From positions 1 to 64,000 of the forward strand of contig JACWDM010000003.1 in NCBI GenBank assembly GCA_014654065.1: DNA of 64,000 nt, read 5' to 3'. Both the position numbers and the translations under genes were made by a program. This DNA comes from Pelagibacterales bacterium SAG-MED15. Lineage in GTDB: Bacteria > Pseudomonadota > Alphaproteobacteria > Pelagibacterales > Pelagibacteraceae. Positions 8,414-20,168 of the stretch are shown one piece after another (position 1 is the first letter of the stretch; each line of letters starts with the position of its first letter). The notes below the pieces were generated by a model, which searched no databases, was not told the DNA's origin, and saw only the letters and a list, made by a program, of their open reading frames with translations.

Positions 8414-10331
8414 ATGATGTTAAGAAGCTTTTTTCTTTTATATTTTATACTATTTACAACTTCTATTTTTTCAAAAGAGATTCCTGTAATTGTAATTTCA
8501 CCCTCAAAATCTCCTCAATCATATAGTTCTGTTGGCAGTCAAGTTACAGTCATTAATTCAGAGGCTATTAAAAACTCTTCAGACACTTTTTTAACCGATC
8601 TTCTAAATAACGAAGCTCAAGGAATGAATATTTTTTCATTAGGTGGTAGAGGAACAAATACAGGTATTCAGATGAGAGGCTTACCAAAACGTTATTCAAC
8701 TATCTATATAGATGGTGTTAAAATGTATGATCCATCATCTCCTGATAATTCATTTTATGCACAGGGATTATTTAAGGACGCAATTGATAGAATAGAAATT
8801 TTAAAAGGTAGTCAAAGTTCACTTTACGGAAATAGTGCAGTAGGAGGAACAATCAATATTTTCACAAAAAAAAGGTAGATTAGGCAAACATCAAGATGCC
8901 GCTGTGAGATACGGCGGAAACAACTCTCAAGATCTTTTTTATTCAATTGATGGAGCTAATGAAAAACAGAATTATTTTGTTGGATTTAATTATTATAAGA
9001 CAGATGGAATATCAGCAATGAGCAATGATAGTGAAAAAGATCCTTATGAAAACAACAGTCTTACTTTAAATTATGGTTATGATATTTCAGAGAATAATAC
9101 TATTGAAAATTATTTAACTCTAAAAGAAAGTTATTTAAAATATGATGAACCTACCGCTGGTAGAGATGATACAAAAAACTCTTCAGAAAATTTTGAAGCA
9201 CATTATAATTTCAAGTTTAAAAATACTCATAACAATTTTAAAAACACTTTTGGTTTAAGTAAGTCAGGCACATCAAGAATGGTAACAAATTTTCAAAACA
9301 AAGAGCATACATATGAAGGTTTTAAAAATATGCTTACCTATTTAGGAGAATATAACGTTAATTTAGATAACAAAATAGTTTATGGATCAGATATTGAGTT
9401 TTTTAAAGCGAAATATCCAACAGATCCAGGTGTGTATAAAACTCATGATGAAGAGATTCATTCTCAATATATAGATTATCAGTTTAGACCATATGAGAAT
9501 ATTTACGCTACCATTGGTGGAAGAAATGATAGACATACCCTTTCTGGTGATGAACAATCATACAGAATTACTGGAGCTTATGATTTAGGTAATAATAGTA
9601 AAATTAGATTTTCACATGGAACGGGATTTTTATTTCCAGCTTTATATGAGTCAGGAGAATATGGATGGACAAATCAAAATGGTGAGGACATTCATGCTGA
9701 AAAGACCACAAGTTTTGACATAGGTTATGAAACCTATTTTGATAGTTTAGACCTAGGCTTTAACATTACTTATTTTGATATTCTTGTTGAGGATCCAATA
9801 ATGGGATCAAATACTACAAACTTTCAAGACAACGTATCTGGTGCAGAAAACAAAAGTAAAGGAATTGAATTATCTACTAACTGGACCGATAATAAGAAAT
9901 TAAATGTTGATTTTAATTATAATCTAACAAAAAGTTATTCAGGCATGGACTGTGATAAGCCAGAAAAAGATAAGTGGGGTTATACTTCTTGTCTAGACTC
10001 TGGTCATGGGTGGCTTGAAAGCGCAATGGTTCGTGTTCCAATCCATGCACTAAGCTCTAAAATTAATTATCAATTTAATAAAGAGTTAGGTGGTTCTTTA
10101 ATGTTAACTTACAAGGGACGTACAAGAGATTATGGTGGAACAGACTATGCTTTCAGAGATCAAATACTTGATGAATATCTTTTAGTAGATCTTAAAAGTT
10201 CTTACAAACTTTTTGAAGGTTATAATTTAGATTTTTCAGTAAAAAATCTTTTTGATAAAAATTATGAAAACTCATTAGATTATTCAGGAACACCAAGGAC
10301 AATAAACATCAGTTTAAAACTTGCATACTAA
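8414..10331 (+). pseudogene. BtuB-like TonB-dependent receptor, interrupted by a frameshift in an A8 tract
   Basis: Outer-membrane TonB-dependent receptor under the cobalamin riboswitch. The start at 8414 follows AAGGA by 8 bases and gives a signal peptide (MMLRSFFLLYFILFTTSIFS); an earlier ATG at 8384 is less likely. The plug domain is intact (LLNNEAQGMNIFSLGGRG, MRGLPKRYSTIYIDGVKM, RIEILKGSQSSLYG, GGTINIF). The frame ends with TAG at 8876-8878, directly after eight A residues at 8866-8873. Removing one A restores F-T-K-K-G-R-L-G-K-H and joins it to the barrel frame, which otherwise opens at a GTG at 8904 and runs to the C-terminal NISLKLAY. The repaired protein is about 638 residues, like BtuB. 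Causes could be true loss, phase variation, transcriptional slippage or a base-calling error. Confidence 0.85.
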
Positions 10332-15712: not shown

Positions 15713-15798
15713 CATAAACTTTCATGTTAAAGTTTTAAAAAAATTGTCCAGTTCATGGTAAAATCTTCATTTATTAAAATGTAGGACTTTATAGGATA

Positions 15799-18299: not shown

Positions 18300-18303
18300 T
18301 TAT

Positions 18304-18378
18304 GGGACTGTAGCTCAATAGTAGAGTACCTCGTTGACATCGAGGGGGTAGTAGGAGCGTAACCTACCAGTCCCACCA
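18304..18378 (+). tRNA. tRNA-Val (anticodon GAC) with deviant D- and T-loops
   Basis: 75 bases with encoded CCA. All stems pair: acceptor GGGACTG/CAGTCCC, D-stem GCTC/GAGT, anticodon stem CCTCG/CGAGG with loop TTGACAT, and T-stem GTAGG/CCTAC. The T-loop is AGCGTAA instead of TTCRANN, and the D-loop AATAGTA lacks the G18-G19 pair. C56 and one loop G remain, and positions 54 and 58 are A and T, the reverse of the usual T and A. Either a functional atypical tRNA or an early pseudogene. Confidence 0.75.
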
Positions 18379-18427
18379 TTAAATATTTTATGTATTTCTG
18401 GGTTTATTTATGTTACTATTAGACATA

Positions 18428-18511
18428 ATGAAACTTAAACAAATCTTTAATTTTTGGAAACATTGGAATTGTAGTTTATTTGTTAAAGTTCACTACACAT
18501 CTGCAAAGTAA
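18428..18511 (+). CDS. Possible 27-residue peptide, unknown
   Basis: A short ATG frame in the gap between tRNA-Val and the DUF2061-like gene encodes a small basic, aromatic peptide with two Trp. No convincing ribosome-binding site precedes it and no family is recognised. Listed only because the gap is otherwise empty; it may well be noncoding. Confidence 0.15.
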   Translation: MKLKQIFNFWKHWNCSLFVKVHYTSAK

Positions 18512-18567
18512 ATAATCTTTTTTACTAATTTTACTAAAATTCATTAAATTTTAATTAAAGGACTTTT

Positions 18568-18762
18568 ATGAGTAAAAAAAGACTATTTTATAAATCAATT
18601 ATTTGGCAACTTATCGGACTGACATGGATATCTTTGTTATCTTATTTATGGTTCGGTGATTGGATTCGATCACTAAGTTTCTCTATGGTAGTTTTGATCG
18701 TAAGTATTTTCATTTATGTTTTGTATGAGATGGCTTGGGAAAGATTTACAAACTATAAGTAA
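18568..18762 (+). CDS. DUF2061-like small membrane protein
   Basis: 64 residues with two transmembrane helices: residues 12-28 around a WQLIGLTWISLLSYLWF core and 35-52 with a SMVVLIVSIFIYVLYEMAWER ending close to the DUF2061 YYxHERxW pattern. A good AAAGGA site lies 7 bases before the ATG. Function of the family is unknown. It ends 2 bases before the tRNA-Thr 3' remnant, so it marks the chromosomal side of that junction. Confidence 0.65.
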   Translation: MSKKRLFYKSIIWQLIGLTWISLLSYLWFGDWIRSLSFSMVVLIVSIFIYVLYEMAWERFTNYK

Positions 18763-18764
18763 AG

Positions 18765-18813
18765 TGGTGCCCCCGCACGGATTCGAACCGCGGACCTATT
18801 GATTACAAATCAA
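18765..18813 (-). pseudogene. tRNA-Thr(TGT) 3'-half remnant (candidate att site)
   Basis: 49 bases identical to 20093-20141 of the intact tRNA-Thr, covering the CCA end, T-arm and anticodon arm. Identity ends at the 5' edge of the anticodon stem, a common crossover region for tRNA-targeting integrases. Same orientation as the intact gene, as expected for attL/attR. Confidence 0.92.
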
Positions 18814-18872
18814 GAATAAAACTTTAAATAGTTATTTGTTTCTAACGAAATTTGTTATTTAACTTAGATCTA

Positions 18873-18889
18873 GTCACACTAGCGTCACA
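18873..18889 (+). repeat. Mini-element inner repeat, left copy
   Basis: 17 bases identical to 20010-20026. It contains GTCACA twice with an 11-bp offset (18873 and 18884). It lies 60 bp inside the left tRNA-Thr remnant. Confidence 0.75.
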
Positions 18890-18905
18890 GTGATAAAGTT
18901 TTTGA

Positions 18906-19445
18906 GTGAAAAAAATAAAGATTCAAGACATAAAAAAAAAGGATCTAGATAAATTTTATAAAATCAAATTATCGAATAATGAATTTGAAGTTATTAAAGA
19001 TTTTGCTCTTGAAGAAAATAATGAAGCAATAAAATATTCACAAAGATTTGAAATTTTTAGAGAATATATAAGAGCCATCGCTTGGGTACATTATAACGAA
19101 AAAGAGAGATCAAAGTTTATTTTTGATAGGGAAGGTGAAAATTCTCCTAACGTAGATCTTTATGATGCAATTTATAATGAAATAGAAAATAGATATCCTT
19201 CAGAAGAAACAGATGACATTTATAGTGAGTCTGATGAATATAACGAAGATCCTATTGTTGATAATGAAGATAAAGACACCTTTATAGATAAAGCTAAAGG
19301 TTTTGATCCATTCTTCTTTATTCCGGACAATGCTTTTGGAGGTTTTTTAATTTTAGTATTTTTAACTTGGCTTATTTTTGGTGTGATATTTGATATAGGC
19401 ACAGATCTTGGACAACCAAGATTTTTTGGACACGATGGAGGCTAA
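18906..19445 (+). CDS. Unknown acidic protein with C-terminal membrane helix
   Basis: 179 residues from a GTG start (18906). Residues 1-100 are charged and helical in character with no recognised domain, 101-130 are strongly acidic (Glu/Asp/Ser), and one hydrophobic helix follows (FGGFLILVFLTWLIFGVIF, about 145-163) before a Gly/Asp tail. This suggests a tail-anchored or single-span protein facing the cytoplasm. The stop abuts the ATG of the SHOCT protein gene, so the pair is one operon. It is cargo of the tRNA-Thr mini-element. Confidence 0.6.
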   Translation: MKKIKIQDIKKKDLDKFYKIKLSNNEFEVIKDFALEENNEAIKYSQRFEIFREYIRAIAWVHYNEKERSKFIFDREGENSPNVDLYDAIYNEIENRYPSEETDDIYSESDEYNEDPIVDNEDKDTFIDKAKGFDPFFFIPDNAFGGFLILVFLTWLIFGVIFDIGTDLGQPRFFGHDGG

Positions 19446-19973
19446 ATGAAAAAACTTTTAGGGATCGTGGTTCTGGGTCTATTTATTAGTTCTCATTCAT
19501 TTGCTATTGAAAAAATATTTGTTGAAAAAAGTTCTGATATTAATGGAGGTACTATTTTTGTTTTAGGACCTAGCTCTAAGAAAAATGGTTTAAGAGAGTG
19601 GGGTGAAAGAATAAGAACAGCAAATCCTTTAGCAAAATCACACTGTTTAAAATATAACTTAAAACACAAACCTTTTAAGTTAACGAGTTATAAGCCGATA
19701 ACTGCCACTCAAACGCGCAAAGATAGAAAATATATCGGCAAAACATATAATTCTATTTTAAAAAAAAATACTCACACCTGGAGTACCGACAAATACTCAG
19801 AACAAATATTAGTAGCTTCTGTTTATGAATTTGAATGCATAAACGATAAACCTAAAAAATCTGATGCTAACAAAGATCTAATTGGCGAAATTGAAAAGCT
19901 TAAAGTTCTTTATGAAGAGGGAACACTTACAAAAGAACAGTTTGAAAAGGCTAAAGATAAACTTCTTAACTAG
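19446..19973 (+). CDS. Secreted SHOCT-domain protein
   Basis: 175 residues. A signal peptide (MKKLLGIVVLGLFISSHSFA) is followed by an unrecognised exported domain. The C-terminal 30 residues (EIEKLKVLYEEGTLTKEQF, then EKAKDKLL) match the SHOCT pattern of a short helix-turn-helix oligomerisation module. It begins immediately after the preceding stop. SHOCT proteins are often linked to envelope or phage-related functions, but the function here is unknown. Confidence 0.65.
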   Translation: MKKLLGIVVLGLFISSHSFAIEKIFVEKSSDINGGTIFVLGPSSKKNGLREWGERIRTANPLAKSHCLKYNLKHKPFKLTSYKPITATQTRKDRKYIGKTYNSILKKNTHTWSTDKYSEQILVASVYEFECINDKPKKSDANKDLIGEIEKLKVLYEEGTLTKEQFEKAKDKLLN

Positions 19974-20009
19974 TTTTGTTAAATGATCACTTGATTACAT
20001 CGCACTCAC

Positions 20010-20028
20010 GTCACACTAGCGTCACACT
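20010..20028 (+). repeat. Mini-element inner repeat, right copy
   Basis: GTCACACT occurs at 20010 and 20021 with an 11-bp offset, within the 17-base sequence shared with 18873-18889. It lies 65-83 bp inside the intact tRNA-Thr. The remaining noncoding stretch 19974-20092 holds nothing else that I recognise. Confidence 0.75.
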
Positions 20029-20092
20029 CACTAAAGAAATTTAATTAGAACTAAATATATGAAAAAAAATTAACGTTGATTTTGTTGAGTGA

Positions 20093-20168
20093 TGGTGCCC
20101 CCGCACGGATTCGAACCGCGGACCTATTGATTACAAATCAATTGCTCTACCAGCTGAGCTACAAGGGC
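20093..20168 (-). tRNA. tRNA-Thr (anticodon TGT)
   Basis: 76 bases with encoded CCA on the minus strand. Acceptor GCCCTTG pairs with CGGGGGC through two G-T pairs, anticodon loop is TTTGTAA (TGT), and the T-loop is canonical TTCGAAT. Its 3' 49 bases are repeated at 18765, marking it as an integration target. Confidence 0.97.

Follow-up and report, generated by a model that had tools for sequence, protein, structure and literature searches.

A 1.3-kb integrase-less element at a SAR11 tRNA-Thr gene and the family of kilobase-sized cassettes to which it belongs

The window, a stretch of 64,000 nucleotides from the 1.21 Mb draft genome of Pelagibacterales bacterium SAG-MED15, carries beside its tRNA-Thr(TGT) gene what is probably a minimal non-autonomous integrative element, derived from integrase-bearing satellites and mobilised in trans or by accretion, although its movement is something we infer. 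SAR11 bacteria, with their streamlined genomes, rank among the most abundant cells on Earth, and to our knowledge little is understood of how they acquire niche and defence genes. As we picture it, the element would be a two-gene operon lacking an integrase and enclosed by two att-type ends, each a core with paired arm-type repeats. Another element, of the phage-satellite-like kind seen in L214, L149 and L127, would supply a tyrosine integrase that binds these repeats and carries out recombination at the tRNA-Thr core, so that the cassette is inserted and the tRNA left intact. In the origin of such cassettes, cargo would have taken the place of the integrase and the genes after it, beginning behind the left arms where the integrase itself had started. 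They would then spread either in trans or by accretion beside a helper of their own arm class. As they have no integrase gene, yet bear matched integrase-type repeats at both ends, the cassettes probably borrow the integrase of larger satellite-like elements.

The features of the window element are given in Table 1. A reading made from the sequence alone had proposed an insertion into tRNA-Thr(TGT) marked by a 49-base perfect copy of its 3' half, and this is borne out: the duplicated part at 18765-18813 corresponds to nucleotides 28-76 of the tRNA, is identical at all 49 positions, lies on the same strand as the gene and is separated from it by 1,279 bp. The layout of core copy and intact gene also agrees with the orientation proposed in that reading, which is that of integration into the 3' part of a tRNA. 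The 17-bp sequence GTCACACTAGCGTCACA lies inside each end (18873-18889 and 20010-20026), with no further copy in the window even when three mismatches are allowed (mean in shuffled sequences 0.01). Both cargo genes read towards tRNA-Thr. The first has no Pfam match above the cut-off and no PHROGs match, and no function is supported for either protein. Neither ORF matches a recombinase or integrase family (Pfam, PHROGs), as expected of cargo-only content, and the sole PF00589 match of the genome lies ~89 kb further along the contig. Positions 18300-18764, between the NAD-kinase-like gene and the element, contain tRNA-Val(GAC) and a DUF2061-like gene; this stretch was left out of the element as it is outside the core copy and shows no arm repeats.

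Table 1. Features of the tRNA-Thr element in the window
Feature	Position	Strand	Evidence
Copy of the final 49 nt of tRNA-Thr (core), at the element's far end	18765..18813	-	49/49 against 20093-20141
Left end interior, ~90 bp, conserved among other elements	18814..18905	+	Matches in genomes of the genus
Left arm-type repeats, GTCACAC..GTCACA	18873..18889	+	Exact repeat of 20010-20026; 0.01 expected
TGATAAAGT, extended -10-like motif near start codon, putative promoter	18891..18899	+	Motif family in 27/45 elements of <=4.1 kb
Cargo gene 1 (ORF1), 179-aa orphan, hydrophobic C-terminal stretch, GTG start	18906..19445	+	ORF
Cargo gene 2, 175 aa, signal-peptide-like leader MKKLLGIVVLGL, C-terminal SHOCT	19446..19973	+	PF09851, E 1.4e-6
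Right arm-type repeats (CGCACTCAC GTCACACTAGC GTCACACT)	20001..20028	+	17-bp core exact at 20010-20026; other right ends have repeats of this type
Right end spacer ending AACGTTGATTTTGTTGAGTGA	20029..20092	+	Conserved before tRNA-Thr or core copies in many relatives
tRNA-Thr(TGT), intact, target gene	20093..20168	-	ARAGORN

Fixation in all relatives, which would have spoken against the sequence-only reading, is not found: among 399 genomes of the genus ORF1 is restricted to its own, one weak partial match (E 5e-4) aside, and thus the window element is not fixed in the genus. Matches to the left end interior are present in 44 of the 399 genomes at E<=0.001, many of the weaker ones being short, and in 19 of these at E<=1e-10. 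In a first batch of 41 same-genus loci (the window and L036-L075, picked from 60 same-genus relatives), 19 contain at least one core copy and seven are empty sites (L052, L053, L057, L058, L064, L067 and L068), in which an intact tRNA-Thr stands 0-1 bp after the NAD-kinase-like gene and no core copy is found in the fetched stretch. The same NAD-kinase-like gene ends beside the element's core copy in L037, L073, L149 and L205. An empty tRNA-Thr beside the DUF2061-like gene, for which the earlier reading had called, was not found among the loci of the 60 relatives, where the sole DUF2061-like match (L055, 28% identity) is ~4 kb from tRNA-Thr.

Altogether 48 elements with varied cargo were delimited in 34 genomes of the genus, ranging from 411 bp to 7.7 kb, with 42 of them within 0.7-2.6 kb; at least two elements occur in 12 genomes, the maximum being the four in tandem of L197. 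Following the core, left ends have ~90 bp in common that contain two arm-like repeats and in many cases a GTGATAAAGT-like motif, and the first start codon comes next, whilst right ends have in common two or three arm-like repeats and a spacer before the tRNA. The end repeats, grouped by eye, form about ten classes: GTCACAC in the window, and elsewhere TACACAC, GGTAACA, CGACACA, GACAACA, GTCCGCA, GACCACA, GGGCACA and others. A second batch of loci was chosen by match to the window's left end, so that its classes are over-represented, and core copies of <88% identity or short of tRNA position 60 were dropped from it; with these cut-offs L194, L195, L199 and L202 gave no delimited element, and L208 yielded no tRNA-Thr.

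The repeats at the two ends of an element tend to belong to one class. Leaving aside 20 loci of another family (L076-L095), L149, L127 and loci with a single tRNA-Thr-derived boundary, the left-right match is 14.9 of 18 within elements and 13.0 between elements, with none of 5,000 permutations as good; over the 45 of the 48 elements that are <=4.1 kb it is 14.8 against 13.1 (0 of 10,000 permutations as good). Shuffling only within the 11 tandem arrays gave 14.5 against 12.1, again with 0 of 10,000 as good, which removes host relatedness as an explanation of the matched ends. Ends of different or only partly similar classes are found in L037, L038, L061-1, L070, L197-3, L203 and L206-1, right-end repeats of the arm type are absent from L042-1, L071 and L200-2, and L074 encloses the NAD-kinase-like gene. 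Integrase-less tRNA-Thr elements of 2.5-6.1 kb with large ORFs and another end type, TTCCTTTCATTAAC on the left and TTCCTTT..TAGTCTT on the right, were also observed (L061:11884-17993, L063:4457-10571 and L071:13626-16163).

Cargo is placed in a fixed slot. With ORF starts set mechanically at the first possible start codon, the distance from the core start to the first cargo ORF is exactly 141 bp in 19 of 47 elements, and in 31 of the 47 it falls within 138-142 bp. The great majority of ORFs (104/114) point towards the tRNA, the ten opposite ones all belonging to two atypical elements, L073, which has its own integrase, and the second of L200. The extended -10-like motif recurs in 27 of the 45 elements of <=4.1 kb, and its short distance from the start codon is suggestive of leaderless expression driven from the left end. 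Where elements have some cargo in common (L037 and L197-3; L050 and L197-2), left-end homology ends near position 138 and resumes later, whilst the left ends of L196 and L198 match to position 137 and their common genes stand at different places.

A gene with the leader is present in 18 of 45 elements, a second gene often starts with the same leader, and the window's own genome has the leader DNA once. Homology of all leader-bearing second genes was considered and rejected, since in most pairs the similarity is confined to the leader, as was specificity of the leader for tRNA-Thr, since it is also found in islands without a nearby tRNA (L219, L220 and L223) and at tRNA-Met (L222). A run of genes beside tRNA-Thr, several with a MKKLLGIVVLGL-type leader and with no core copies between them, was noted at L056:249-10340. 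A scan of 99 of the 114 cargo ORFs (those left out being 11 of L073, two of L200 and one each of L063 and L074) gave ten proteins with a pilin methylation motif, three each with MrcB_N, DUF4268, HNH, YdjM and DUF6994, two each with Mrr_cat and T5orf172, and one with MmeI; PADLOC restriction and candidate defence models match several cargo proteins. Roles in defence and surface variation are plausible for the cargo.

The same slot is occupied by an integrase in larger elements. In L127, L149 and L214 the integrase is the first gene in the cargo-slot position, behind the same kind of paired repeats. L214, from a scan of genome contigs, is a complete satellite-like element, ~6.9 kb long and bounded on both sides by tRNA-Thr sequence (its core copy lies at 8851, followed by an integrase at 9001-9981, small ORFs, a 691-aa DUF5906 protein and tRNA-Thr at 15778), whilst L149 is a cut-off integrase-bearing element at tRNA-Thr. 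L127, a viral contig (IMG/VR), has the tRNA-Thr core with GTCCGCA repeats on both sides in attP order, then a 328-aa tyrosine integrase, and also encodes an AAA_25 protein and a small-terminase-like protein; without a terminal direct repeat it was not accepted as complete. L214, L213 and L127 all appear satellite-like, combining an integrase with a DUF5906 or AAA_25 protein and, in L127, a small terminase. The L214 integrase matches PF00589 (E 3.5e-20), the nearest solved structures in the PDB are lambda integrase and one other integrase, and the tyrosine integrase with repeats on both sides of the core in L127 and L214 fits a lambda-type system. Repeats tie these elements to cassettes: GACAACAATCTGACAACACT is contained in the right end of L214 and in those of cassette L191-1 and locus L199, 11-mers of it stand at both ends of cassette L192, and GTCCGCA-class 11-mers are common to L127, L042-2 and L197-4. 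In L150 (G413) a truncated integrase is followed by three cargo ORFs, judged by eye to be peroxiredoxin-like, methyltransferase-like and MORN-like (AhpC-TSA and MORN occur in the family tally); a step between satellite and cassette would be expected to have this appearance.

Helpers of this kind are rare. The L127 integrase has matches in 19 of the 399 genomes at E<=1e-12, and only three are close relatives: G293 (76%, at tRNA-Asn), G288 (73%, at tRNA-Thr, the contig ending inside the integrase gene) and G413 (65% over a 78-aa remnant, at tRNA-Thr); close relatives at tRNA-Thr are thus only G288 and the truncated G413. Integrases 27-37% identical to that of L127 were rejected as helpers for the tRNA-Thr core, the targets recognised being tRNA-Met and tRNA-Gly, with a tmRNA nearby in two of the loci. 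The weakest point of the model is that no integrase-bearing element with the window's GTCACAC arms was found at tRNA-Thr in the 399 genomes, the viral contigs or the genome contigs. Larger integrase elements, for which the sequence-only reading had advised a search by the inner repeat, do exist with the same architecture and, for sibling classes, the same repeats; none was found there for the class of the window. GTCACA repeats do precede integrases of other targets (L131-L133, L135, L137 and L141). Within the viral contigs the exact window repeat has no match, a looser pattern gave eight matches, none with a tRNA or related integrase in the locus, which were taken as chance, and no cassette attP was found, only L126 (an intact tRNA-Thr) and L127. 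ORF1 has no match in the phage collection, and the ten matches listed (of 258 records) each cover a stretch of tRNA size at the tRNA-Thr end. The missing helper for the window's class would take the form of an integrase gene directly behind GTCACACTNNNGTCACA beside tRNA-Thr.

A direct repeat (at least 6 bases, spacing 9-14 bp) within 60 bp upstream was found for 19 of 21 integrase genes, several or many of them close relatives of one another, against 93 of 439 control ORFs. The exceptions among the integrases are L134 and the L150 remnant. Across the integrases of L129-L147, L213, L214 and L127, differing paired repeats precede the start codon and the first 20 residues vary, which could possibly amount to a recognition code for arm sites. 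A one-residue code, relating integrase residue 14 to the arm, fitted six integrases by eye and was broken by L143, and is kept as a lead only.

Between species, cargo identity exceeds that of flanking core proteins in the four best-matched comparable pairs: 93% against 72% (NAD-kinase-like) and 68% (SpoU-like) in L049/L205, 88.5% against flanks of 80% and 73% in L040/L209, 95% against 77% in L196/L198 and 98% against 86% in L037/L197, the last two compared with the SpoU-like protein only. The difference is small for L039/L049 (77% against 66% and 74%), and the cargo gene of this pair occurs with two arm classes, in L039-2 and in L049 and L205. The viral contig L127 encodes a relative, at 31%, of a cargo protein of L191. 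Of the earlier proposal of a satellite-type or cargo-only element mobilised in trans, membership of a non-autonomous family stands, whilst the movement in trans is what we infer.

Similar arrangements were observed elsewhere. At L222:7656-9400 (G020) a 1.6 kb cassette stands at tRNA-Met with a 54-bp tRNA copy, GACACACATATGAC repeats at both ends and a leader gene inside, so that the arrangement extends beyond tRNA-Thr. In another family of the same order, elements of 0.4-0.9 kb, mostly with one ORF, are bounded by 47-55-bp tRNA-Thr copies (four in tandem at L092:13798-15788; also L079, L080, L085, L090, L091, L093 and L095), and no arm-like repeats are visible in them. At L055:6577-13018 ORFs of 718 and 879 aa separate the intact gene from a copy of the tRNA-Thr 5' half (positions 1-45) ~6.3 kb beyond it, which is perhaps the mark of an element on the 5' side of the tRNA.

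The most substantial alternative is that no integrase acts today and that cassettes are exchanged by homologous recombination, for instance after natural transformation, with the conserved ends, tRNA core and common leaders as homology. Between some elements homology breaks off close to the first start codon and returns in later genes or at the right end, so that cargo genes have been swapped inside conserved ends, the same leader before unrelated proteins fits such exchange, and homologous recombination between flanking RNA genes has been proposed, in a passage of PMC2217521, for a SAR11 surface-gene region. However, perfect tRNA copies, empty sites next to the core and the within-array matching of end repeat classes are left unexplained by it, and we consider it unlikely as the explanation, whilst homologous exchange between the conserved ends may well act in addition.

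It is quite improbable that the elements are dead remnants, decayed satellites or prophages which have lost their integrase and no longer move. The truncated integrase in L150 and the degraded core copies of some loci (L038, L196) are what would be expected of decay, but open cargo frames nearly fill the elements, intact matched repeats stand at both ends, and cargo is more alike between species than flanking genes in the compared pairs. As for a tRNA piece duplicated by chance beside unrelated genes, nothing beyond the draft state of the genomes speaks for it, and the 49/49 identity, the core copies in 19 of the 41 first-batch loci and the absence of ORF1 from relatives (one weak partial match aside) reduce its probability almost to nil. 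We therefore return to a non-autonomous element served by the integrase of another as the preferred reading.

The closest known kind is that of the cis-mobilizable elements, closer than the tycheposons. Like a CIME, the window element has both attachment ends and no integrase or transfer genes inside; as regards a compatible helper, integrase elements are found for the sibling classes GACAACA (L214) and GTCCGCA (L127) and none for GTCACAC. According to passages of PMC3146451, 15 ssrA islands of Dehalococcoides lack an integration module and were suggested to be cis-mobilizable; the islands share one RNA gene, are repeat-bounded, in some cases tandem, with or without an integration module, and accretion was suggested for the latter. 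The SAR11 units differ in being ~0.4-2.5 kb, with class-specific arm-type repeats at both ends and cargo in the integrase slot, and their helpers look like phage satellites. Integrase-less islands bounded by the repeat of an RNA gene are thus already known beside integrase-bearing ones.

Tycheposons and VEIMEs, as outlined in parts of PMC10872708 and PMC11389934, are likewise tRNA-targeted cargo elements of streamlined aquatic bacteria. The likeness to tRNA-bounded marine cargo elements suggested by the sequence-only reading is nevertheless loose, as tycheposons are described as cargo elements of 4-200 kb, those reported in Methylophilaceae containing a tyrosine recombinase (PMC10872708, in part), whereas the window element is 1.3 kb and has no tyrosine recombinase of its own. 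The same portion of PMC10872708 places in Methylophilaceae, besides tycheposons, an additive island with recurring tRNA-Lys ends. The review PMC11389934, in the part concerned, puts CALINs and MITEs among the hitchers and lists VEIMEs and tycheposons as marine satellites that have been proposed. Integron cassettes, CALINs and MITEs are also small non-autonomous units with the recombinase encoded elsewhere, and arrays of cargo are known amongst them (PMC11389934, in part). However, the boundary seen in SAR11 is the 3' part of a tRNA instead of attC, arm sites and a left-end context for expression seem to come with every unit, and MITEs carry no genes whereas the cassettes do. For SAR11 itself, excerpts describe one hypervariable region flanked by tRNA genes and another with an integrase gene, without attC sites (PMC2217521), and tyrosine recombinases and tRNA genes beside a transferred phosphonate operon (PMC12416821). 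The listed titles and abstract openings of the open literature on SAR11, Pelagibacter and pelagiphage, with subscription papers mostly outside, contain no description of tRNA-Thr cassettes.

It is possible, and we advance it tentatively, that SAR11 mobility has three tiers: the phage, the integrase-bearing satellite, and integrase-less cassettes of 0.4-2.5 kb which would parasitise the satellite integrase by way of arm sites specific to each class. At a fixed start codon behind a built-in promoter, cargo (pilin-like, restriction-like and secreted proteins) would be swapped, and the tRNA-Thr locus would work as an integron-like platform for gene exchange without attC sites. Should the preferred reading hold, kilobase-sized cassettes dock at one tRNA gene in many species of the genus. 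Matched arm classes would further provide a natural series for reading the arm-site specificity of tyrosine integrases against their protein sequence, making both the recognition code and the dependence of cassettes on their helpers directly testable.
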